Positions 1 to 9,604 of a stretch of 64,000 nt of DNA are shown piece by piece; the stretch's first letter is position 1, and each line of letters begins with the position of its first letter. The DNA is from Chitinophaga pinensis (lineage in GTDB: Bacteria > Bacteroidota > Bacteroidia > UBA4408): contig CAMAVS010000003.1 in NCBI GenBank assembly GCA_945861665.1, forward strand, positions 1 through 64,000. The letters run 5' to 3'. Position numbers and translations under genes: made by a program. Under the pieces are notes generated by a model. The model saw only the letters and a program-made list of their open reading frames with translations. It was not told the DNA's origin and did no database searches.

Positions 1-130
1 GCTAACGTTTTGCAGCTTGGCGAAGTGGCGGATTTAAAAGCACAAATGTTCAATTTATTACAAATGTTCATTAGTATTACAAATGTTCAATTTAGCACTG
101 AACCCGCCATTTTGCCAAACTGCTGTTAGC
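1..130 (-). repeat. attC-like hairpin element A (end of cassette 3)
   Basis: An imperfect inverted repeat of 130 bp. Outer arms GCTAAC (1-6) and GTTAGC (125-130) pair. Inner arms 12-31 and 104-123 pair at 17 of 20 positions. The spacer between outer and inner arm is 5 nt (GTTTT) on one side and 1 nt (T) on the other. GAAG at 22-25 faces TTTT, giving two G-T wobbles on the plus strand. The loop holds three direct copies of ACAAATGTTCA (42-52, 60-70, 80-90). It follows the VCBS-repeat gene. Elements B and C have the same design and the same length. Confidence 0.85.
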
Positions 131-1563
131 CGTTCGGTTTTTATTAATGTTTTATGAATTTTGCTGTTTTAGAATTTCCATTTTCATTTAATTTAATAAT
201 ATAAACACCGTTTGTTAAATTAGAAATGTCTATAATAAAATCATTTGAATTCATTTTTTTAGTGAACACTATCTGACCAACTGAATTGTAAATAGTTATG
301 AGGGATTCATCTTTTAAAATTAAATTAATAAAATCTTTAGCTGGATTTGGATAAAAAATGATACTATTATTATTTACTATTTGTTCAGAAATACCTAAAA
401 CAGTAGAAGTATTCCAATACACATTTGTGTCATCTGCAAATCCTTGAATAATGATATCTTTTAGTCCATCTCCATTAAAATCGGCTATGACACAATCGGC
501 AATATATTCACCTCCCAAAATTTGGGTTTGAACAAAAGTATTATTACCATCATTTCTATAAACTATATTGAAAATATTCGGCAAACCACCAGCTTGACTA
601 CCCACTATTAATAAGTCTTGGTCTCCATCGTTATCCAAATCTGCAAAGGCATTTTTTCCAGCAAAAGTTTGTTGAAGATTGGTGGAAATAGATGAAAAAA
701 GTCCTGCTCCATTATTGATGTATAATAAATTTTGAGTATTGCCATTGATAATTAAATCTAAATCTCCATCATTATCTGTATCAGCCACTTCAATACCTTC
801 AGCAGAAATTGCTGGGAATGTTGTATTTATGTTTAAAGTATATACCCCAGAACCATTATTTTGATATAATTTAATGGTATTTGAACCAGAAATAATAACA
901 TCTTGGTCTCCATCGTTTTCAATATCAATAATTTGTACAATTCCATCTACTGGAGTAAAAACGGAGTTTCCTTGTGGCGTGAAAACTGCATTTCCGTTGT
1001 TAAGGTAAATATCAGAAATTGTAGCAGTTGTAATAACCAAGTCTTGGTCACCATCATTGTCCACATCAGCAATAGCAGCTCCTTCAATAAATACAGGCAA
1101 ATTATTAGGTACTTGTGTAAAATTTCCCAAGCCATCATTTCTATAAATATTTGCAAATTTTTGGGCAAGTTCATTCTGTCCAGAGAAAAACAAGTCTAAA
1201 TCTCCATCACCATCTAAATCTTTAAAAAATGCTTGGCTATTTCCTGAACGAGGAAAATTATGAGTTACCTCTGTGAAATTTCCAGTTCCATCGTTTTTAT
1301 AAAGTTTCGTCCAAGGACCTATTCGAGTCATCAATAAGTCTAAGTCTCCGTCTCCATCTATATCTCCACTTGCAAATATTCCGCCATAACCCTCCATTAT
1401 GTTAGGCTGTGGATTTGCTAAAGTGAAATTTAATGTTTGACTGTAGCCATTTATACAAATTAGTATAATGGTCTGAATTAATAAAATTTGTCTCATATAT
1501 TTTGTATTAAATTGTTATTTTAGTTTATTAAATTCTCACACGTTTCGCCAAACTGACGGCTAA
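6..1563 (-). mobile_element. Gene cassette 3 (VCBS-repeat surface protein)
   Basis: On the minus strand the unit starts at the TT of the core site GTTAGCCGT (complement of the bases ending at 1564) and ends at the G opposite base 6, about 1.56 kb. Its head, TTAGCCG, is the exact complement of the outer arm next to its own hairpin A (125-132). The same head differs from the outer arm of hairpin B, to which it is joined. That is the pattern left by integration of a circular cassette. Boundaries are inferred from the integron rule that the crossover lies between G and TT. Confidence 0.7.
144..1496 (-). CDS. Secreted VCBS/FG-GAP repeat protein with T9SS sorting domain
   Basis: A 450-residue exported protein. 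An N-terminal signal peptide (about 1-19, ending SQT-like) is followed by at least eight repeats carrying the calcium-binding-like motif DxDxDGDxD (for example GDIDGDGDLDLLM and ADTDNDGDLDLII), typical of VCBS/FG-GAP beta-propellers. The last 75 residues are a T9SS type A sorting domain (IIFYPNPAKDFINL onward, ending FIKH), so the product is probably anchored or released at the cell surface after PorU cleavage. It is the cargo of cassette 3: its stop lies 14 bp from hairpin element A. Binding partner and function are unknown. A VCBS protein as the only gene of a cassette is unusual. Confidence 0.85.
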   Translation of the reverse strand: MRQILLIQTIILICINGYSQTLNFTLANPQPNIMEGYGGIFASGDIDGDGDLDLLMTRIGPWTKLYKNDGTGNFTEVTHNFPRSGNSQAFFKDLDGDGDLDLFFSGQNELAQKFANIYRNDGLGNFTQVPNNLPVFIEGAAIADVDNDGDQDLVITTATISDIYLNNGNAVFTPQGNSVFTPVDGIVQIIDIENDGDQDVIISGSNTIKLYQNNGSGVYTLNINTTFPAISAEGIEVADTDNDGDLDLIINGNTQNLLYINNGAGLFSSISTNLQQTFAGKNAFADLDNDGDQDLLIVGSQAGGLPNIFNIVYRNDGNNTFVQTQILGGEYIADCVIADFNGDGLKDIIIQGFADDTNVYWNTSTVLGISEQIVNNNSIIFYPNPAKDFINLILKDESLITIYNSVGQIVFTKKMNSNDFIIDISNLTNGVYIIKLNENGNSKTAKFIKH

Positions 1564-1688
1564 CGTTTTGCAGCTACCCGAAGGGCGGGACTTTTACCAC
1601 AAAACTTGATTTGAAAAACAAATGTTTGATTAACCACAAAACTGTCTTTGGAACACGAAACCCCGCCTTTTGGGTAGGTGCTGTTACC
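1559..1688 (-). repeat. attC-like hairpin element B (end of cassette 2)
   Basis: 130-bp inverted repeat of the same design as elements A and C. Outer arms GCTAAC (1559-1564) and GTTACC (1683-1688) pair only partly, because they belong to different cassettes. Inner arms 1570-1589 and 1662-1681 pair at 17 of 20 positions. GAAG at 1580-1583 faces TTTT. The TAACGTTTTGC left edge is identical in all three elements. Interior words such as ACCACAAAACT and AAATGTTTGATTAACCAC are shared with element C. Confidence 0.85.
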
Positions 1689-3734
1689 GGTTCGTGCTTC
1701 TTTTTCTAAGGTCGTTATAAAGTCTGTATTCCGCATGATTGAAAGTAATTAAATGTGCTGTCATAAAGTTCTTTTGGTCTTGTGTGGTCAAGGTCGTCAC
1801 CTTCTGGAATATAAATTATTAGTCCTTGTCTGGCTCTTGTCAACAGCACTCTATAGGCATTTTGCAAATATGTTTTGTCGTTTTCATTGTGGATATTTTG
1901 CCACTTAGTACCAGAAAAATATTGACAATTCCATTTCCCATCCTTGAAAAAATAATTGATGTCCCATGCTAAACATACCCAATCAATTTCTAAACCTTGA
2001 ATGTCAAACTCTGTTGCTATTTCTTCCAAGAAATAAGAAGAACGAATATCATCTGAATTATTTAAAAACCAATTTGGAGCTGAAATTTCATTCTTCACAT
2101 CAATTCCTAAAGGTCTTAATCTTCTACCGCCTGAACTTGCAACTAGTCCAATTCTTTCACTTCCTTTTGCTTGAGTTCTTAACCATTTTTTTGCTGTTGT
2201 CAAGTCTCTAGTAATTAAAATTGGAAAATCATTTTTGACTTCTCCTAAAATAGTATTTGCTCTTTCATGTTTTGCTTCTAAAATTTCGTGCATTAATTCG
2301 GAAATTTTCTCTGAACGAAAAGACCTTACAGAAACCGATAAATGCAATTCATGTTTTTCAGTGGCTACAGATTGAACCCAATTTCGTAATTCAATGTCTG
2401 ATAAATAATTATCGTCTGTAGAAATCAAATTTGAGTAATGAATATCCCAATGGGGGTAGTTGTTTTTCAAAGAAGAAAGCCATTCAGAAACTCCGGCCTC
2501 ACCAGTATTTATTTCTTGTCCGCCTCCGATTAAACAAATGATTGTGCACCAATCTTCGTGTCTATCCATAACACTGATTAAGAACTCTGGCTCTGACATG
2601 TCAAAATCTTCAACTCCTTTTTTTCGTTTCATAAAGGAGCTTACCTGTTCCTTTGCCCAAGCTCTCTGTGCTTCGTCAAATACTACAACCTTTTCAACTG
2701 GTGCTTTTTTAGAAATTAAATTGTCATCTCGAAAGTGATGAATATTTTGAATAAAAGCGTTAGCTTTTATTGCAGCAACTTTTTTTGTTAGTGGTTCACC
2801 ATTTTCTTTTGATGTTGCAACTTCATCTCTGGTTAAGGCTTCTCTCAAAACATCTACTAACGGCCCATTTCCAGAAAGAAAAACTGCATGTTCATCTTCA
2901 TCCGCTTTCATTCTTTCGTTAGCAATATTTAGTCCTGCTAATGTTTTCCCAGCACCAGGAACTCCAGTCAAAAAACAAATTGATTTTTTATTTTCTCTTT
3001 TTGCAGTTTCAATTATGTTATTGATGCAGTCGGTTGTCTTTGAAAGATTGATTGCTCCTGCATCGTGCCTTGAAATCTCTTTTACATTGTGTCCCTTGTA
3101 GAGAGCTTGTGCAGCTTCAATAATAGTTGGCGTGGGTTTGTAAATTGAATTTTCCCAGTCAGTAGCATTTATTTGTTTTCCGTTGCTTTGTAAAAGTGTC
3201 TTGTTTATTACGTCACTTAAATTCTGTTGATTAGCTTTTAAAGGCTCAAATAGATTGTCTTCGCTATTAAATACGTTCTCTATTGGTTCTGCTTTTGTTG
3301 AAATCAATACAGGAATTAATTTTTCATGATGGCTGCCTTCGTGAAAATTTTGCAAGTCCAAACAATAGTCAACCACTTGTTCTATTGAGTGTTTCTGATA
3401 TTGATTGTCACCAACTTTAAATTCTAAAACAAAAATGAGGTCGTTAATTATTAAAACGTTGTCAACTCGCTTGCCCATACGTGGGATTGAAAATTCAAAA
3501 TATATTTGTCCGTTGTCAATACTTTGCAGTGTGTCTTTTAGAATTGTTATTTGTTTAACCCAAGCGTTTTTTTGTAAGTCTTCAAGTGCATGATTGTGAT
3601 GCAAACTTAGTTGTCCAAGAATTCGTGTTTCATCGTCTTGCAAGAAGTCCGAAATTGTATTTGAGTAGTAACTTCTTGTCATTTAAATCTCTTAATTGTT
3701 AGTATTCGGTTTGTCGTCCCAGCATGACCGGTAA
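1564..3734 (-). mobile_element. Gene cassette 2 (nuclease/helicase fusion)
   Basis: On the minus strand it starts TTACCGGTCA and ends at the G opposite base 1564, about 2.17 kb. Head TTACCGG is exactly complementary to the outer arm of its own hairpin B (1683-1690, GTTACCGG). It differs by one base from the outer arm of hairpin C that precedes it. It carries one gene, in the usual cassette orientation (gene, then hairpin). Excision as a circle is inferred. Confidence 0.7.
1715..3682 (-). CDS. DUF2075 / Schlafen group 3-like helicase with N-terminal nuclease-like domain
   Basis: A 655-residue protein with two parts. Residues about 55-130 look like a PD-(D/E)XK nuclease fold: E63, D74 (GKRVDN) and E87-F-K89 (VLEFKV). 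Residues about 230-640 are a superfamily 1-type P-loop helicase domain of the DUF2075 (Schlafen group 3-like) family: Walker A TGVPGAGKT with K246, Walker B VVVFDEAQ with D336-E337, and a C-terminal motif VI-like NAYRVLLTRARQG. Proteins of this family are often found in bacterial defence islands. As the sole cargo of cassette 2 this is a candidate antiphage effector, which is inference. It has no signal peptide, so it is cytoplasmic. The start codon lies 52 bp inside the cassette head. Confidence 0.8.
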   Translation of the reverse strand: MTRSYYSNTISDFLQDDETRILGQLSLHHNHALEDLQKNAWVKQITILKDTLQSIDNGQIYFEFSIPRMGKRVDNVLIINDLIFVLEFKVGDNQYQKHSIEQVVDYCLDLQNFHEGSHHEKLIPVLISTKAEPIENVFNSEDNLFEPLKANQQNLSDVINKTLLQSNGKQINATDWENSIYKPTPTIIEAAQALYKGHNVKEISRHDAGAINLSKTTDCINNIIETAKRENKKSICFLTGVPGAGKTLAGLNIANERMKADEDEHAVFLSGNGPLVDVLREALTRDEVATSKENGEPLTKKVAAIKANAFIQNIHHFRDDNLISKKAPVEKVVVFDEAQRAWAKEQVSSFMKRKKGVEDFDMSEPEFLISVMDRHEDWCTIICLIGGGQEINTGEAGVSEWLSSLKNNYPHWDIHYSNLISTDDNYLSDIELRNWVQSVATEKHELHLSVSVRSFRSEKISELMHEILEAKHERANTILGEVKNDFPILITRDLTTAKKWLRTQAKGSERIGLVASSGGRRLRPLGIDVKNEISAPNWFLNNSDDIRSSYFLEEIATEFDIQGLEIDWVCLAWDINYFFKDGKWNCQYFSGTKWQNIHNENDKTYLQNAYRVLLTRARQGLIIYIPEGDDLDHTRPKELYDSTFNYFQSCGIQTL

Positions 3735-3859
3735 CGTTTTGCGGGTTTAAGAAGTTGGCGATTTCGGAGCACAAAACTGTCAAGCCACCACAAATGTTGA
3801 TGCGAGGTAGCATGTTCAATTAACCACTGAATCGCCAATTTTTTAAACCCGCTGTTAGC
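3730..3859 (-). repeat. attC-like hairpin element C (end of cassette 1)
   Basis: 130-bp inverted repeat and the best-paired of the three. Outer arms GGTAAC (3730-3735) and GTTAGC (3854-3859). Inner arms 3741-3763 and 3830-3852 pair at 21 of 23 positions, and the only two mismatches are the conserved Gs of GAAG (3751-3754) facing T. Spacers are 5 nt (GTTTT) and 1 nt (T), as in A and B. The adjoining sequence CGAACCGCTAACAGC (minus strand) is nearly identical beside elements A and B. Confidence 0.87.
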
Positions 3860-4750
3860 GGTTCGGGCTTCTTTTACTTCACTGTCAATTAGATTTTTCA
3901 ATTGTTGTCAGGTGATTTAAATTTTTGAAATTCATTTCTTTTAATTTCAACAGTGTGAAACCCATTGGTAATAAGAGATTGCTGTAAATTATATTCTTCT
4001 GATAAGAACATATAATACTGTGCATCTGTCATGCTTGGGGCAAGTATCCCCAAATAGCGATTAGATTTTGGTTCATAATGATTATGAAGGTGGTATTTAA
4101 AACTCCACCCTTGCTTCAAATCATTTTTTACTGCTTCTAAAATAACTCCTGGTTTAGGAGGCCAAGGCTGGTCGCTAGCAGCAAAATAAATCTTGACAAG
4201 TTTTAAAGAATCGTGAAACAATATAAATCCGTGAAATTCTGTAGGATGACTTAATAAAGGGTATCGGCTTATTTGATAATCTAATAATTGAGCTTCCAAA
4301 TAGTTTATAGGTCTTATTGTGCCTATGGTTTTAGTATGAACTAGTTGAGCATTAATGGAATCTCCATTCGTAGTGCTAATTGATTTATAAGAAATATCTT
4401 GGAATGATAATTTTTGTAAAATAAGTTGAAAGGTGTCCTTACCAAGTATTTTACTTATCGAATCTTTATATAATTTTAAAGCAGGTGGTTGAACAAAATT
4501 GGTGTCCCATAAAAAAGGGTCATCCTTGAACTCCCAATATTGAAAGATTTCCGCCCCACTTTTTTTAATCACAATAGGTGGAAGTGTCTTAAGTGAAACG
4601 TGTTGCCCATTTCCTTTGTCATTGCAACTTATTATAAAAATAATGACTGATAAAAATAGCCCACTCAAAAACTTAATTCTTCTATTCATATATTTTAATT
4701 TATCCTCGATTTATTTCTAAGGTTTTCAAGTCTGCCAGCCTGACCGCTAA
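3735..4750 (-). mobile_element. Gene cassette 1 (lipoprotein), next to the recombinase
   Basis: The first cassette of the array, about 1.02 kb. On the minus strand it begins TTAGCGGTCA immediately after the spacer behind the recombinase gene. Head TTAGCGG is exactly complementary to the outer arm of its own hairpin C (3854-3861, GTTAGCGG). It holds one lipoprotein gene. In an integron the cassette nearest the integrase is normally the most recently inserted one. Confidence 0.7.
3898..4689 (-). CDS. Lipoprotein of unknown function (cassette cargo)
   Basis: A 263-residue protein with a lipoprotein signal: MNRRIKFLSGLFLSVIIFIISC, with the lipobox cysteine at residue 22, so it is exported and lipid-anchored. 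The mature part is hydrophilic and holds no domain that I recognise. Visible landmarks are a tryptophan-rich stretch (DPFLWDTNF), DQPWPPKPG, and YHLHNHYEP. It is the only gene of cassette 1 and ends 39 bp before hairpin C. I do not assign a function. Confidence 0.75.
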   Translation of the reverse strand: MNRRIKFLSGLFLSVIIFIISCNDKGNGQHVSLKTLPPIVIKKSGAEIFQYWEFKDDPFLWDTNFVQPPALKLYKDSISKILGKDTFQLILQKLSFQDISYKSISTTNGDSINAQLVHTKTIGTIRPINYLEAQLLDYQISRYPLLSHPTEFHGFILFHDSLKLVKIYFAASDQPWPPKPGVILEAVKNDLKQGWSFKYHLHNHYEPKSNRYLGILAPSMTDAQYYMFLSEEYNLQQSLITNGFHTVEIKRNEFQKFKSPDNN

Positions 4751-4828
4751 CTCATTTATAGGGGAAGTTTTTTTTCTAAAAACTTCCTCAATATCTCCAA
4801 TTTGGACGTATTGAGGAAGTTTTTTTGT
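4741..4828 (-). promoter_or_regulatory. attI-like junction between recombinase and first cassette
   Basis: The core site CCGCTAAC (4744-4751; GTTAGCGG on the minus strand) is the point where the array begins. Upstream of it, towards the recombinase stop, lies a hairpin (4778-4793 with 4809-4824, 16 bp perfect arms containing CTTCCTC) plus a third partial copy of its arm (GGGGAAGTTTTTTTT, 4761-4775). No hairpin of the 130-bp type occurs on the recombinase side, as expected for attI rather than attC. Position and core site are seen; the attI role is inferred. Confidence 0.5.
4778..4824 (-). terminator. Probable terminator after the recombinase gene
   Basis: Perfect 16-bp inverted arms (4778-4793, 4809-4824) with a 15-nt loop lie 5 bp after the recombinase stop. 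On the minus strand the stem is followed by a T run. It would isolate cassette transcription from dnaE-recombinase read-through. The same stem is T-flanked on the plus strand as well. Confidence 0.6.
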
Positions 4829-5983
4829 TTATTTGTTTCCCTTTATGTTTATACTTAATTTGTCTAATGGACTCATTATTTTACTTATCGCCCTTCTACT
4901 CACGTGTGTATAAATTTCAGTTGTTTTCGATGATTTATGCCCTAACAACTCTTGAATATATCTCAAATCGGTTCCGTTTTCTAGCAAATGTGTAGCGTAA
5001 CTATGTCTTAGCATATGCAAGTTAACTTTTTTTTGTATACCAGCCAAATTACAAGCCTTTTTTAATACTAATGCTAAACTACGTTCACTGTATTGATTAC
5101 CATCTTGACCCTCAAAGAGATAATCTTTAGGATTATACTCCTTATAATAATAGTTCAGTAAAAGTAAAATAGTTTCACTTAACGGTACAATTCTGTCTTT
5201 TTTACCTTTCGCCTGATTAATATGAACAATCATTCGTTCCTTATCTATATCATTAATTCGCATACCCAATAACTCACTTCTTCTTAAACCTGCTGAATAA
5301 ATTAAACTTAACATACATTTATGTTTAATATTATCCAATGCATTTATAATTTTTGCAACTTCGTTTTCTGATATTACTTTTGGTAGCAAGGAGGAGGTTT
5401 TTGGTCTGTGTATTAGCTCGGCATTCAAACTTGTATTTTGCATCGTCTTAAAAAACAACTTAATAGCATTTACAACTTGATTTTGATAAGATGACGATAG
5501 TTTATTTGCTAAAATATACTCATTGTTGAATTCAATTACATCATCATTACTAATATCTGTAATTGTTTTTTTGTGATAATATTTTAAAAATGTTTTTAAT
5601 GCATCTAAATAAGTGTCTATTGTATTTTCACTATACCTTCGCGATTGCATCCAGTGTTTAAATTTTTCAATTTTTTCAACCGTTTCAGTATTTAATTCCT
5701 TTTTATTCCTTTTTTCTTTCTCAATTTTGTCTTTTAATGGTTGTGCATCAATTCTTGAAATGGGATCAAATATTGCCTTTATTTCATTCAGAATTGCAAT
5801 AGTATAGGGTGCATACCAGCTTTTTAGTGTTCTGCTCCAACTTGTAGATTTAATTTTTCGTACAGCATTTCCTAATTCCGTATCAATTGGAAATTTGATC
5901 ATCACAACTTCAGTTCCATTATGGATAGTTTTGTCGAGCACAATTGTTTTCAATAGTGTATTTTGGTTGGCCGCTACATTCAT
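4829..5983 (-). CDS. Xer-like tyrosine recombinase, candidate cassette integrase
   Basis: A 384-residue tyrosine recombinase. Residues 1-95 form an extra N-terminal region (SWSRTLKSWYAPYTIAILNE). Residues about 104-185 are the SAM-like core-binding domain, resembling those of integron integrases (SRRYSENTIDTYLDALKTFL). Residues about 200-370 are catalytic, with R234 (GLRRSE), K259, H323-xx-R326 (HMLRHSYA), H349 (LLGHK) and nucleophile Y358 (IYTHV), all present. The C-terminus has MSPLDKL, as in IntI. Between LFEGQ and the HxxR box the chain is short and lacks the roughly 20-residue insertion that marks IntI proteins. It lies 39 bp downstream of dnaE and points toward the cassettes, unlike class 1 integrons. 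Fold and chemistry are certain; acting on the adjacent hairpins is inferred. Confidence 0.88.
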   Translation of the reverse strand: MNVAANQNTLLKTIVLDKTIHNGTEVVMIKFPIDTELGNAVRKIKSTSWSRTLKSWYAPYTIAILNEIKAIFDPISRIDAQPLKDKIEKEKRNKKELNTETVEKIEKFKHWMQSRRYSENTIDTYLDALKTFLKYYHKKTITDISNDDVIEFNNEYILANKLSSSYQNQVVNAIKLFFKTMQNTSLNAELIHRPKTSSLLPKVISENEVAKIINALDNIKHKCMLSLIYSAGLRRSELLGMRINDIDKERMIVHINQAKGKKDRIVPLSETILLLLNYYYKEYNPKDYLFEGQDGNQYSERSLALVLKKACNLAGIQKKVNLHMLRHSYATHLLENGTDLRYIQELLGHKSSKTTEIYTHVSRRAISKIMSPLDKLSINIKGNK

Positions 5984-6022: not shown

Positions 6023-9000
6023 CTAGTTCAACTTATAAACCAAGTTTAATTTATTCAATTCAGTTATAAATTGTGCCGAAATAGCCACCTTGTGTTTGCG
6101 TGATGCCATTTGAACGCCTATTTTTTCTATGCTTTCTTCAATGTGAATATTGAGTATGCATTTGCCGGTGTGCGCTAAAATAATCTTGTTCAATTGCTCA
6201 ATCATTTTGTCATTTATATGTTCAATTTTGCAGGAGAGCGTAATGCTTTTTAGCAATTTATCTTTTGCTTCCGAAAGCAATTGCATGTGCTGTATTTTAA
6301 ATTCTAACTGCTCGGCTTGATTCCAACGGGTATCGACTTTTCCCTTTATAAATATAAATGTGCCGTTCACAATAAAATTTCTGAAGTTTCTGTAATCGCT
6401 CGAAAACAATGCAAATTGGAAGGTGTCATTATAATCCTCTACATTAAAGGTGCCAAAAAGATTTCCTTTTTTGGTTGTTTTTTCTTGTACATTAGTAATA
6501 AGTCCGGCTATAGTAATATCTCTGCCTTTTAGTTTGCTAAGGTCGCTAAGTGCTTCAATTTTGTGCGAGCTAAGATCCATTTCTATACGATACATATCCA
6601 GAGGATGTCCCGAAATATAAATGCCTACCACATCTTTTTCAAATTTTAATTTTTCCAAACTTCCCCAAGGAGCACAAAGAGGAACAAGGGGTTCGGGCAT
6701 TTCAATTTCTTCTGCATCGCCAAACAAGGATTGTTGCATGGCATCGACTCCTTCTTGAAAAATGGCTCCAAAGCGTAATAGTTTTTCTATAAAGGTCACT
6801 CCGTCTCCTTCGGTACTAAAATATTGTGCACGGTGCATATTTTCGAAAGAGTCGAAGCCTCCGGAGTAAACTAAACTTTCAAATGTTTTTTTGTTTGCTG
6901 TTCGTAAATTAATGCGTTTTACCAAATCAAAGGCATTTTTAAAAGGGCCGTTGGCATTTCGTTCGTTGATAATTGAAGCTACTGCCGCTTCGCCTAAACC
7001 TTTTACCGCACCCATTCCAAAACGGATGCCGCCTTTTTTATTTACAGTAAATTGATAATCGCTCTCATTCGCATCGGGCCCGAGCACAGGTATTCCCATA
7101 CGCTTGGCTTCTTCCATAAAGAATGTGACTTTGTCAATGTTGCTCAAATTGTGCGTAAGTAGGGATGCCATAAATTCGGCCGGATAATGTGCTTTTAAAT
7201 AGGCCGTTTGAAATGCAACAAATGCATAACAGGTGGAGTGCGATTTGTTAAAAGCATACTCAGCAAATTTTTCCCAGTCGGTCCAAATTTTTTCCAATTT
7301 ATCTGAGGGTAATCCCTTTATAGTTGCTCCTGCAACAAATTGACCCTTCATTTTATCAAGTGTATACCTGTCTTTTTTACCCATTGCTTTTCGCAACACA
7401 TCAGCATCACCTTTGGAAAAATTTGCCAATTTTTGTGAAAGCAACATAACTTGCTCTTGGTAAACAGTGATACCATAGGTGTCGGAAAGAAATTCTTCCA
7501 TCTCCGGAAGATCGTATGTGATGGCCTCTCTTCCGTGCTTCCGTGCAATAAAATTTGGAATGTATTCAATTGGACCAGGACGATACAATGCATTCATTGC
7601 AATGAGGTCGGCAAATTTATCGGGCTTTAAGGATACCAAATGTTTTTGCATACCTGGCGATTCAAACTGAAAGGTTCCGTTGGTATCGCCACGTTGGTAA
7701 AGTTCAAATGTTTTAGCATCGTCAAGCGGAACGGTGTCAATATTAATTTCTACTCCGTGAATTTGTTTAATAAGTCTTAGTGCATCGCGAATAATGGTAA
7801 GAGTTTTTAAACCCAAGAAGTCCATTTTAATTACTCCCGCATCTTCAATTACTCTTCCATCGTATTGTGTAATGTATAAATTCGTTTCTTTCGATGCTGC
7901 TATAGGAACAATGTCTGTTAAATCTTTTGGTGCAATAATAATTGCCGATGCATGAATTCCTGTGCCTCTTACTGAGCCTTCTAAAATAAAAGCCTCTTTC
8001 AACACTTTTGCCTGCAGCCCTTCACCTTCATGTATAGCACGTAATTTTTTTACGTCTTCAATATTCTCTTTGTTTAAGTTTTCTTTTTGTACCAAACTGT
8101 TTTCTCCCTTTAGCGGTGCGGTAAGTAATCTTCTTAATTCAATTCCGGGTCGGTCGGGGACTAATTTTGCCAGTGCATTGGAATCATTAAGCGGTAAGTC
8201 CATTACACGTGCTACGTCCTTTATACTCATCTTTGCAGCCATTGTACCATAGGTTACAATTTGCGCTACTTGATTTTTCCCATATTTACCAACCACATAA
8301 TCAATTACTTTCTGTCGTCCCTCATCGTCAAAATCAGTATCTATATCGGGCATACTTTTTCGGTCGGGATTTAGAAATCGCTCAAACAGTAAATTGTATT
8401 TTATGGGATCAATATTTGTGATGCCAATACAGTAGGCAACTGCCGAGCCTGCAGCCGAGCCACGTCCCGGGCCTATTAATACTCCAATATCACGTCCGTG
8501 ATTTATAAAATCGGCAACGATAAGAAAATAACCTGCAAAGCCCATTGTTCTGATGGTGAACAATTCAAAGTTTAAGCGCTCTTCAACTTCCGGTGTAATG
8601 TCTTTATAACGTGCTTTGGCACCTTTGTAGGTTAAGTCTTTTAAAAAATCATCTTGTGTATCAAAACCACTTGGAATTGTATAATGTGGCAACATAATAT
8701 CCTGCTTTAGTTTCAGCGGACTTATCTTTGCGACAATTTCATTAGTATTGTCGAGTGCTTCGGGAATATCACTAAAAATGTTCCCCATTTCGGCAGTGGT
8801 TTTAAAATAAAATTGGTCGTTATAAAATGCAAAACGCCTTCCTTTTGAAAATCCTTCCTCGTCCGAAAATTCTTTCATTGTTGGCGTACTTTGTTTTTCG
8901 CCTGTGTTTATACACAGTAAAATATCGTGTGCATTTGAATCAGGCTGGTCAACATAATGCGAATCGTTGGATGCAATAATTTTCACATTATATTTTTTTG

Positions 9001-9604
9001 CCAGCTTAAGCAAGGTTTCATTCACAATGTTTTGTTCTGGAATATCGTGACGTTGTATTTCAACATAATAATCTTCACCAAAAATATCCAACCACCATTT
9101 GAATTCTATTTCGCCCGCAGCTTCTCCATTTTTAAGAATGATACGTGGAACAGATGCTCCCAAGCAACAAGTGGTTGCAATTAATCCTTTATGGTATTTT
9201 AAAACAAGTTCTTTATCAATACGTGGGTATTTTCCATACAATCCTTCCATATATCCCAACGAACACAGTTTTATCAAGTTGCGATAGCCTTCTGCATCTT
9301 TTGCTAAAAGCAACTGATGGTATCGTATATCTTTATCTTCTTTTGTAAACTGTTGTTTGTGTCTGTTTTCTACCAAATAAAATTCGCAACCTACAATGGG
9401 TTTTATTTTATTTGGATTTTCAGGAGTATTGTGTTTTCCAGCTTCGGCAACAAATTTAAAAACGCCAAACATATTGCCATGATCGGTAATAGCAATAGCT
9501 GGCATATTATCGGCAATTGCTTTTTTATAAAGCGATGAAATATCGGCAGCGCCATCAAGCAATGAAAACTGCGTGTGTACGTGTAAGTGAGAAAAATGAG
9601 ACAT
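6023..9604 (-). CDS. dnaE: DNA polymerase III alpha subunit
   Basis: The replicative polymerase catalytic subunit, 1193 residues, of normal DnaE1 length. It starts with a PHP domain (HLHVHTQFSLLDGAA, AITDHGNMFG). The polymerase core has the GPGRGSAAGS motif and the catalytic aspartates in PDIDTDFDDEGR, then the palm segment with TYGITVYQEQVM. A helix-hairpin-helix region, an OB fold (ITIAGLITNVQEKTTKKGNLFG) and a C-terminal domain follow. The start is MSHFSHLHVHTQ. It is the only replication gene in the window and is followed by the recombinase gene on the same strand. Confidence 0.97.
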   Translation of the reverse strand: MSHFSHLHVHTQFSLLDGAADISSLYKKAIADNMPAIAITDHGNMFGVFKFVAEAGKHNTPENPNKIKPIVGCEFYLVENRHKQQFTKEDKDIRYHQLLLAKDAEGYRNLIKLCSLGYMEGLYGKYPRIDKELVLKYHKGLIATTCCLGASVPRIILKNGEAAGEIEFKWWLDIFGEDYYVEIQRHDIPEQNIVNETLLKLAKKYNVKIIASNDSHYVDQPDSNAHDILLCINTGEKQSTPTMKEFSDEEGFSKGRRFAFYNDQFYFKTTAEMGNIFSDIPEALDNTNEIVAKISPLKLKQDIMLPHYTIPSGFDTQDDFLKDLTYKGAKARYKDITPEVEERLNFELFTIRTMGFAGYFLIVADFINHGRDIGVLIGPGRGSAAGSAVAYCIGITNIDPIKYNLLFERFLNPDRKSMPDIDTDFDDEGRQKVIDYVVGKYGKNQVAQIVTYGTMAAKMSIKDVARVMDLPLNDSNALAKLVPDRPGIELRRLLTAPLKGENSLVQKENLNKENIEDVKKLRAIHEGEGLQAKVLKEAFILEGSVRGTGIHASAIIIAPKDLTDIVPIAASKETNLYITQYDGRVIEDAGVIKMDFLGLKTLTIIRDALRLIKQIHGVEINIDTVPLDDAKTFELYQRGDTNGTFQFESPGMQKHLVSLKPDKFADLIAMNALYRPGPIEYIPNFIARKHGREAITYDLPEMEEFLSDTYGITVYQEQVMLLSQKLANFSKGDADVLRKAMGKKDRYTLDKMKGQFVAGATIKGLPSDKLEKIWTDWEKFAEYAFNKSHSTCYAFVAFQTAYLKAHYPAEFMASLLTHNLSNIDKVTFFMEEAKRMGIPVLGPDANESDYQFTVNKKGGIRFGMGAVKGLGEAAVASIINERNANGPFKNAFDLVKRINLRTANKKTFESLVYSGGFDSFENMHRAQYFSTEGDGVTFIEKLLRFGAIFQEGVDAMQQSLFGDAEEIEMPEPLVPLCAPWGSLEKLKFEKDVVGIYISGHPLDMYRIEMDLSSHKIEALSDLSKLKGRDITIAGLITNVQEKTTKKGNLFGTFNVEDYNDTFQFALFSSDYRNFRNFIVNGTFIFIKGKVDTRWNQAEQLEFKIQHMQLLSEAKDKLLKSITLSCKIEHINDKMIEQLNKIILAHTGKCILNIHIEESIEKIGVQMASRKHKVAISAQFITELNKLNLVYKLN

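Follow-up and report, generated by a model that had tools for sequence, protein, structure and literature searches.

A tyrosine recombinase lacking the I2 insertion of IntI borders a putative integron-like hairpin cassette array in Chitinophaga pinensis

The gene at positions 4829-5983 (minus strand) of the analyzed window, a 64,000-nt stretch of DNA from Chitinophaga pinensis, very probably encodes the integrase of an integron-like, single-stranded DNA (ssDNA) cassette-capture system that is typical of Bacteroidia, lacks the I2 insertion and would integrate cassettes beside the 3′ end of the integrase gene. This reading is carried by the anatomy of the array, the position of the attI-like site, the matching of cassette ends, stem covariation, strand polarity and the linkage between integrase and sites, all of which were demonstrated at the level of sequence.

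The open reading frame spans exactly these positions and encodes a tyrosine recombinase of 384 aa. It contains a core-binding (SAM-like) domain (aa 103-184; 5432-5677, minus strand; PF13495 and PF02899) and a catalytic domain (aa 203-376; 4856-5377, minus strand; PF00589) without I2 between aa 272 and 299. Among relatives, the catalytic residues R234, K259, H323, R326 and H349 were invariant and Y358 was nearly so. The IntI model TIGR02249 matched the protein in two separate stretches; its score of 206 bits fell short of the cut-off (265). The AlphaFold2 model had a mean pLDDT of 89 and its best fold match in the PDB was VchIntI bound to VCR DNA. The kinship to integron integrases put forward in the original prediction was supported. 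The IntI-like tail that it had also pointed out is real in that the protein carries SPLDKL, but S-P-[LF]-D-x-L was the usual C-terminal tail throughout the family to which this integrase belongs. A dnaE-like gene, identified by its sequence, lies upstream (6023-9604).

Downstream of the integrase lie three genes that share its strand, and a 134-nt inverted-repeat site follows each of them. A terminator-like hairpin (4778-4824, minus strand), consisting of an inverted repeat followed by a T run, separates the integrase from an attI-like crossover site, G^TTAGCGG (4744-4751, minus strand; GTTAGCGG at 4751-4744, left flank TATAAATGAG), which reads GAG^TTAGCGG with its neighboring bases. This site is found 78 nt past the integrase stop, a position kept in relatives, and the 3′ end of the gene faces the array; the expectation that the end of the gene and not its start borders the recombination site was thus borne out. 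With putative limits at G^TT, cassette 1 would span 3735-4750 (minus strand; own ends pairing GTTAGCGG / CCGCTAAC), and it holds a gene for a protein of 263 aa without family match (3898-4689, minus strand). It ends in attC-like hairpin 1 (3726-3863, 119 bits), annotated on the plus strand, which is the folding bottom strand. Cassette 2 (1564-3734, minus strand; same placement of limits; own ends pairing GTTACCGG / CCGGTAAC) ends in attC-like hairpin 2 (1555-1692, plus strand; 121 bits in the model match). Its gene (1715-3682, minus strand) encodes a 655-aa protein with an SLFN-g3 helicase domain that matched the PADLOC candidate defence family PDC-S41 with 985 bits, so that by sequence similarity the array likely carries anti-phage cargo. 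Cassette 3 (putative limits 6-1563, minus strand; own ends pairing GTTAGCCG / CGGCTAAC) contains a gene with FG-GAP repeats and a type IX secretion tail (144-1496, minus strand). The start of the window is a contig end and falls within attC-like hairpin 3 (1-134, plus strand; 113 bits), which is cut there. Scanning the window with the hairpin model gave no site beyond these three.

The association of integrase and sites was also present in relatives, as the proposed link to hairpin cassettes implies. Around the integrases of 80 relatives, the covariance model found 127 hairpins in 272 kb of downstream sequence versus 2 in 648 kb of upstream sequence, and a hairpin site was present in 31 of the 38 loci whose downstream sequence reached 1.5 kb or more. 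An independent, simple detector found 53 sites downstream and none upstream of the integrase. Contig edges were close to the 3′ end of the integrase in 51/74 cases versus 6/62 for the 5′ end (p = 6e-13), and within 5 kb the loci (n = 80) were broken off 57 times at the 3′ side versus 18 times at the 5′ side. As negative controls, the surroundings of Xer and IntI genes, of other recombinases and of unrelated loci in the same genome (133 kb) gave no hits of the hairpin model. Sites were present in 263 of 395 Bacteroidia genomes, namely in 164/180 genomes with an integrase and in 99/215 without a detected one (p = 7e-23, relatedness ignored). An integron-like cassette system appears to be common across Bacteroidia.

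The boundaries of the cassettes could be examined through the matching of their ends, defined as complementarity between the four variable bases of the right-hand box and the cassette's own left end. A cassette's own two ends matched in 29 of 39 neighboring pairs, compared with 5 of 68 for the two boxes within one hairpin and 3% for random pairs. The ends would match because a crossover at G^TT leaves such a trace. The R boxes within one hairpin need not match, the right one being part of the following cassette; an attC detector that demanded such a match missed two of the three window sites and was dropped. In 29 of 32 loci the first attC had its partner ahead of it. In the 27 usable loci this attI position lay 66-178 nt past the integrase stop (66-119 nt in all but one) and had the consensus caTATAaA.aAG^TTA.

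Elsewhere in the C. pinensis genome 21 further sites were detected at E ≤ 0.001. Most of them lie by contig ends, on C6, C8 and C11, which is what a larger array that interrupted the assembly would produce. On these other contigs the script found matching cassette ends in 2 of 6 cases, and the printed ends of locus L221 added three pairs; the script count is low partly because its motif was overly stringent. The pattern GCAAAACGTTRSC was too narrow for this genome. Between two hairpin sites of L221 on C8 (6652-7304) lies a toxin-antitoxin-like pair, of the HigB/HigA type by eye. Lone hairpin sites distant from the detected arrays were seen on contigs C1, C2 and C10 and are perhaps stray cassette insertions. 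No whole cassette was found to be common to the window and the relatives. What recurred were hairpins, 98% identical over 127 nt, that were joined to other genes in other genera.

Stem covariation was measured on sites that had initially been picked for complementary arms: 96.7% of the cells were paired compared with 69.6% after shuffling, and 164 double changes were counted versus 49. Strand polarity was more telling, because the detector could not favor a strand. G.T pairs on the bottom versus the top strand amounted to 77:0 in 27 aligned sites and to 81:10 in 56 raw sites (p = 6e-15), and two G.T pairs occurred without exception across the 28 sites of alignment A3. The attC consensus contained a 4-nt one-sided bulge after the R box and one frequent mismatch. 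The three window sites had computed folding energies of -29.6, -25.1 and -24.8 kcal/mol for the bottom strand versus -21.3, -17.6 and -20.7 kcal/mol for the top strand. The hairpin sites fell into length classes of ∼88, 134 and 180 nt (L052, L068, L070-L149), spaced by ∼45 nt.

In the proposed mechanism, a circular cassette or an array would expose the single-stranded bottom strand at a cassette end, and this strand would form a long hairpin whose R-box duplex (NNNNTAACG / TGTTANNNN) holds the crossover point G^TTA. The bulge beside it together with the G.T wobbles of the stem would single out the bottom strand as the one to be recombined. The integrase would recombine this hairpin with the double-stranded attI just past its own stop codon, and new cassettes would be added beside the integrase 3′ end and in the integrase direction. 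By analogy with integrons, recombination of the folded bottom strand would presumably be resolved by replication. We consider it unlikely that the system is integron-like but acts on ordinary double-stranded sites, with the hairpin arms being inverted recombinase-binding sites, terminators or RNA structures. Double-stranded sites are used by most I2-less tyrosine recombinases, and a terminator-like hairpin is indeed present near attI in the window. However, the arm sequence is free to vary while the pairing is kept, the arms are ∼75 nt apart (loop), and the G.T wobbles are confined to the bottom strand, for which a double-stranded site gives no reason. A role as RNA is also unlikely, because RNA in the cassette direction bears the poorly paired (A.C) version.

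The absence of the IntI insertion, which had been predicted, was evident from the spacing between the GLRxxE and HxLRH motifs. This was 91-93 aa in 68 relatives, 129-135 aa in 19 IntI and 93-98 aa in Xer/XerA. In the alignment to VchIntI4 (2a3v), residues 272-299 stand opposite IntI residues 173-243 and ∼43 residues are absent. The insertion was found in 0 of 68 family members. Because IntI is held to need I2 for recombining ssDNA (PMC7790495), extending hairpin use to an integrase that lacks I2 is an extrapolation. I2 is also seen as the innovation that gave integron integrases the use of ssDNA hairpins, and the missing intermediates have been named as a gap (PMC7790495).

In a first tree the family was placed beside IntI and outside XerA/C/D, with IntI as its own clade (100/100). 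When recombinases associated with IS91 were added in a second tree, the family (98/89) and IntI (99/96) stayed separate, and the nearest sampled kin of IntI were IS91-associated recombinases of Alphaproteobacteria (Rhizobium and Sulfitobacter; 97/85). The sister relationship to IntI alone suggested by the first tree was lost here and was discarded. The family, IntI and the IS91-associated recombinases were all apart from XerA, XerC and XerD (100/99). A tyrosine recombinase directly beside an IS91-family transposase was seen at L157 (13990-15932) and L212 (3944-6073); the L212 recombinase is among the nearest kin of IntI in the second tree, and the Sulfitobacter recombinase is followed by an IS91 transposase. 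The trees thus give a separate clade instead of the chimera of IntI-like ends and a Xer-like middle that had been proposed.

The phylogeny bears on two further readings. The integrase could be a true IntI that lost I2 secondarily, hence a divergent member of the canonical integrons; its architecture, fold and crossover logic are as in IntI, and VchIntI is its top structural match. We regard this as quite improbable, because the family and IntI form separate clades in both trees, the I2-less IS91-associated recombinases are nearer to IntI, and not a single one of the 68 family members has the insertion. A housekeeping Xer protein or mobile-element integrase that merely sits beside repeats would accord with the NCBIfam name of the window protein, XerA/integron-type recombinase, and with the many relatives annotated only as site-specific integrase. 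But XerC/XerD-like genes are present elsewhere in the same genome, and linkage, orientation and end matching hold over many genera, which makes this reading very remote, barring a strong sampling bias. XerA, XerC and XerD share the catalytic spacing without I2; they lack the N-terminal domain and the arrays and form a separate clade. Both outcomes that would have spoken against the original prediction, a position among housekeeping XerC/D and relatives without nearby hairpin arrays, were checked: the family falls outside Xer and its members carry arrays downstream.

About 95 extra N-terminal residues had been noted, and ∼100 were found ahead of the core-binding domain. Of these, residues 12-74 (5762-5950, minus strand) form a HARP/DUF5710-like domain, assigned by a profile, by HARP in a relative and by the AlphaFold2 model, in which it has a beta-beta-alpha-beta-beta-alpha fold. 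A profile of 42 rows, most of them from among the 70 relatives that were then searched, found the domain in 65 of these 70 as one, two or three tandem copies; it scored the window copy, which was included in it, with 70 bits. Three copies were seen in L134, L139 and L144, and two in L142, L143 and L209. Pfam HARP was recognized in four members, in L140 above the curated cut-off (26.2 vs 25 bits) and in the other three below it, and did not match the window copy; DUF5710 weakly matched twelve members. In a fold search the HARP domain of SMARCAL1 ranked second with an E-value of 0.78, no match being significant, and a search of the profile against PDB sequences yielded only a chance match. The sequence of the domain diverges fast among relatives.

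Fork and junction DNA are targets of HARP domains, so that hairpin binding by the N-terminal domain is at best a reasonable guess. The domain may bind the hairpin or the bulge and partly fill the role of the I2 helix, and by this analogy it is plausible that it stands in for I2 in hairpin recognition. For this step alone, there is nearly an even chance that the domain serves multimerization or general or arm-site DNA contacts instead. In integrases of the lambda type an N-terminal domain binds arm sites, the domain of the present family diverges fast, and at least one recombinase with a hairpin array (L208, see below) has no recognizable copy, so that the wider clade does not strictly need it. 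Against this stand the HARP similarity, the weak fold match to SMARCAL1 and the tandem repeats in some members, which favor hairpin recognition.

With integrons that carry IntI, both mobile and chromosomal (including those of Vibrio), the window system has in common a putative attI adjoining the integrase gene, co-oriented cassettes each with an imperfect inverted repeat that forms a hairpin at its end, cassette boundaries with ends matching around G^TT, in silico folding of attC in the bottom strand, and a related catalytic core and fold. It differs from them in that its integrase lacks the IntI-specific I2 domain, has the HARP-like N-terminal domain and lies outside the IntI clade. Its stem polarity consists of G.T wobbles and a 4-nt one-sided bulge, its attI follows the integrase 3′ end, and its attC measure ∼88, 134 or 180 nt. 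In Treponema integrons the integrase 3′ end likewise faces the cassettes; their integrase is a canonical IntI, unlike that of the window. These are chromosomal integrons with an inverted intI (PMC3607928). Among 247 Bacteroidia genomes, one had a match to the canonical IntI model at or above the cut-off. A Rufibacter plasmid carried arrays with ∼65-nt hairpins.

The trees placed the recombinase of the recombinase-associated acquired interbacterial defence (rAID) arrays of gut Bacteroidales (Parabacteroides and Bacteroides) inside the integrase family. The intergenic motifs of these arrays have been described as conserved (PMC12247911), and they correspond to TAAC-hairpin-ATTA sites whose ends matched in 5/5 cases in L208 and 3/4 in L210. 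The arrays of immunity genes with short hairpins were seen at 5810-10798 in L208 and 9810-18786 in L210. The window shares with rAID arrays a recombinase of this clade, a co-oriented gene array and a conserved intergenic motif in the form of end-matched hairpin sites. It differs in cargo, which consists of orphan immunity genes in rAID and not in the window, and rAID hairpins measure ∼53 nt.

Traces of the system were also found beside resistance genes. The blaVEB loci (L154, 6142-6864; L161, 5985-7078; L160, 3940-4078) displayed an integrase remnant, a family-type attI and a Bacteroidota-type attC. On a Klebsiella plasmid a truncated family integrase lies 111 nt upstream of blaVEB-3 with GAG^TTAGCGG in between, and on a plasmid from Aliarcobacter the blaVEB-3 gene is preceded by GTATGACAAAGTCATACATATAAACTAG^TTAGCGG, a near fit to the family attI. 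The blaVEB attC matched the hairpin model with 48-53 bits (E about 1e-9), while the remaining class 1 cassettes of these loci did not fit. This 133-bp attC has been described as long, off the IntI1 consensus and poorly recombined by IntI1 (PMC3518468). The blaVEB cassette is now carried by IntI1 in class 1 integrons and may have originated in the Bacteroidota hairpin-cassette system. Upstream of tet(X3), TnpF is a truncated family integrase, and an apparent left half of a hairpin follows tet(X3) (L153, 6019-8260; L155); this case is weaker than that of blaVEB because the tet(X3) ends do not match. On a Flagellimonas plasmid a gene of the dihydrofolate reductase family lies between two hairpin sites beside erm(F) (L158, 5889-6736).

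Integrons have been reported as rare in Bacteroidetes, with isolated integrases only, plus Salinibacter (PMC9024848), yet sites of the present type were detected in most of the Bacteroidia genomes sampled. Searches that rely on the IntI insertion may miss an I2-less integrase. In the literature searched, mostly without subscription papers, Bacteroidota integrons of this I2-less hairpin type were not found described, which does not prove their novelty. A broader reading, possible but held with somewhat less than even confidence, is that the family constitutes a second integron lineage, of Bacteroidota, whose integrase never had I2. Recombination of ssDNA hairpins would then predate I2 or have arisen twice, with strand choice set by the G.T wobbles and the bulge and the fold read by the HARP-like domain; the lineage would include rAID, would be the source of blaVEB and may have provided a first step in the mobilization of tet(X). 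A large I2-less clade tied to bottom-strand hairpin arrays makes the question of the origin of I2 testable. The system would also tie the rAID arrays of the gut to environmental Flavobacteriia and to the clinical resistance cassettes of blaVEB and tet(X3), all within one framework.
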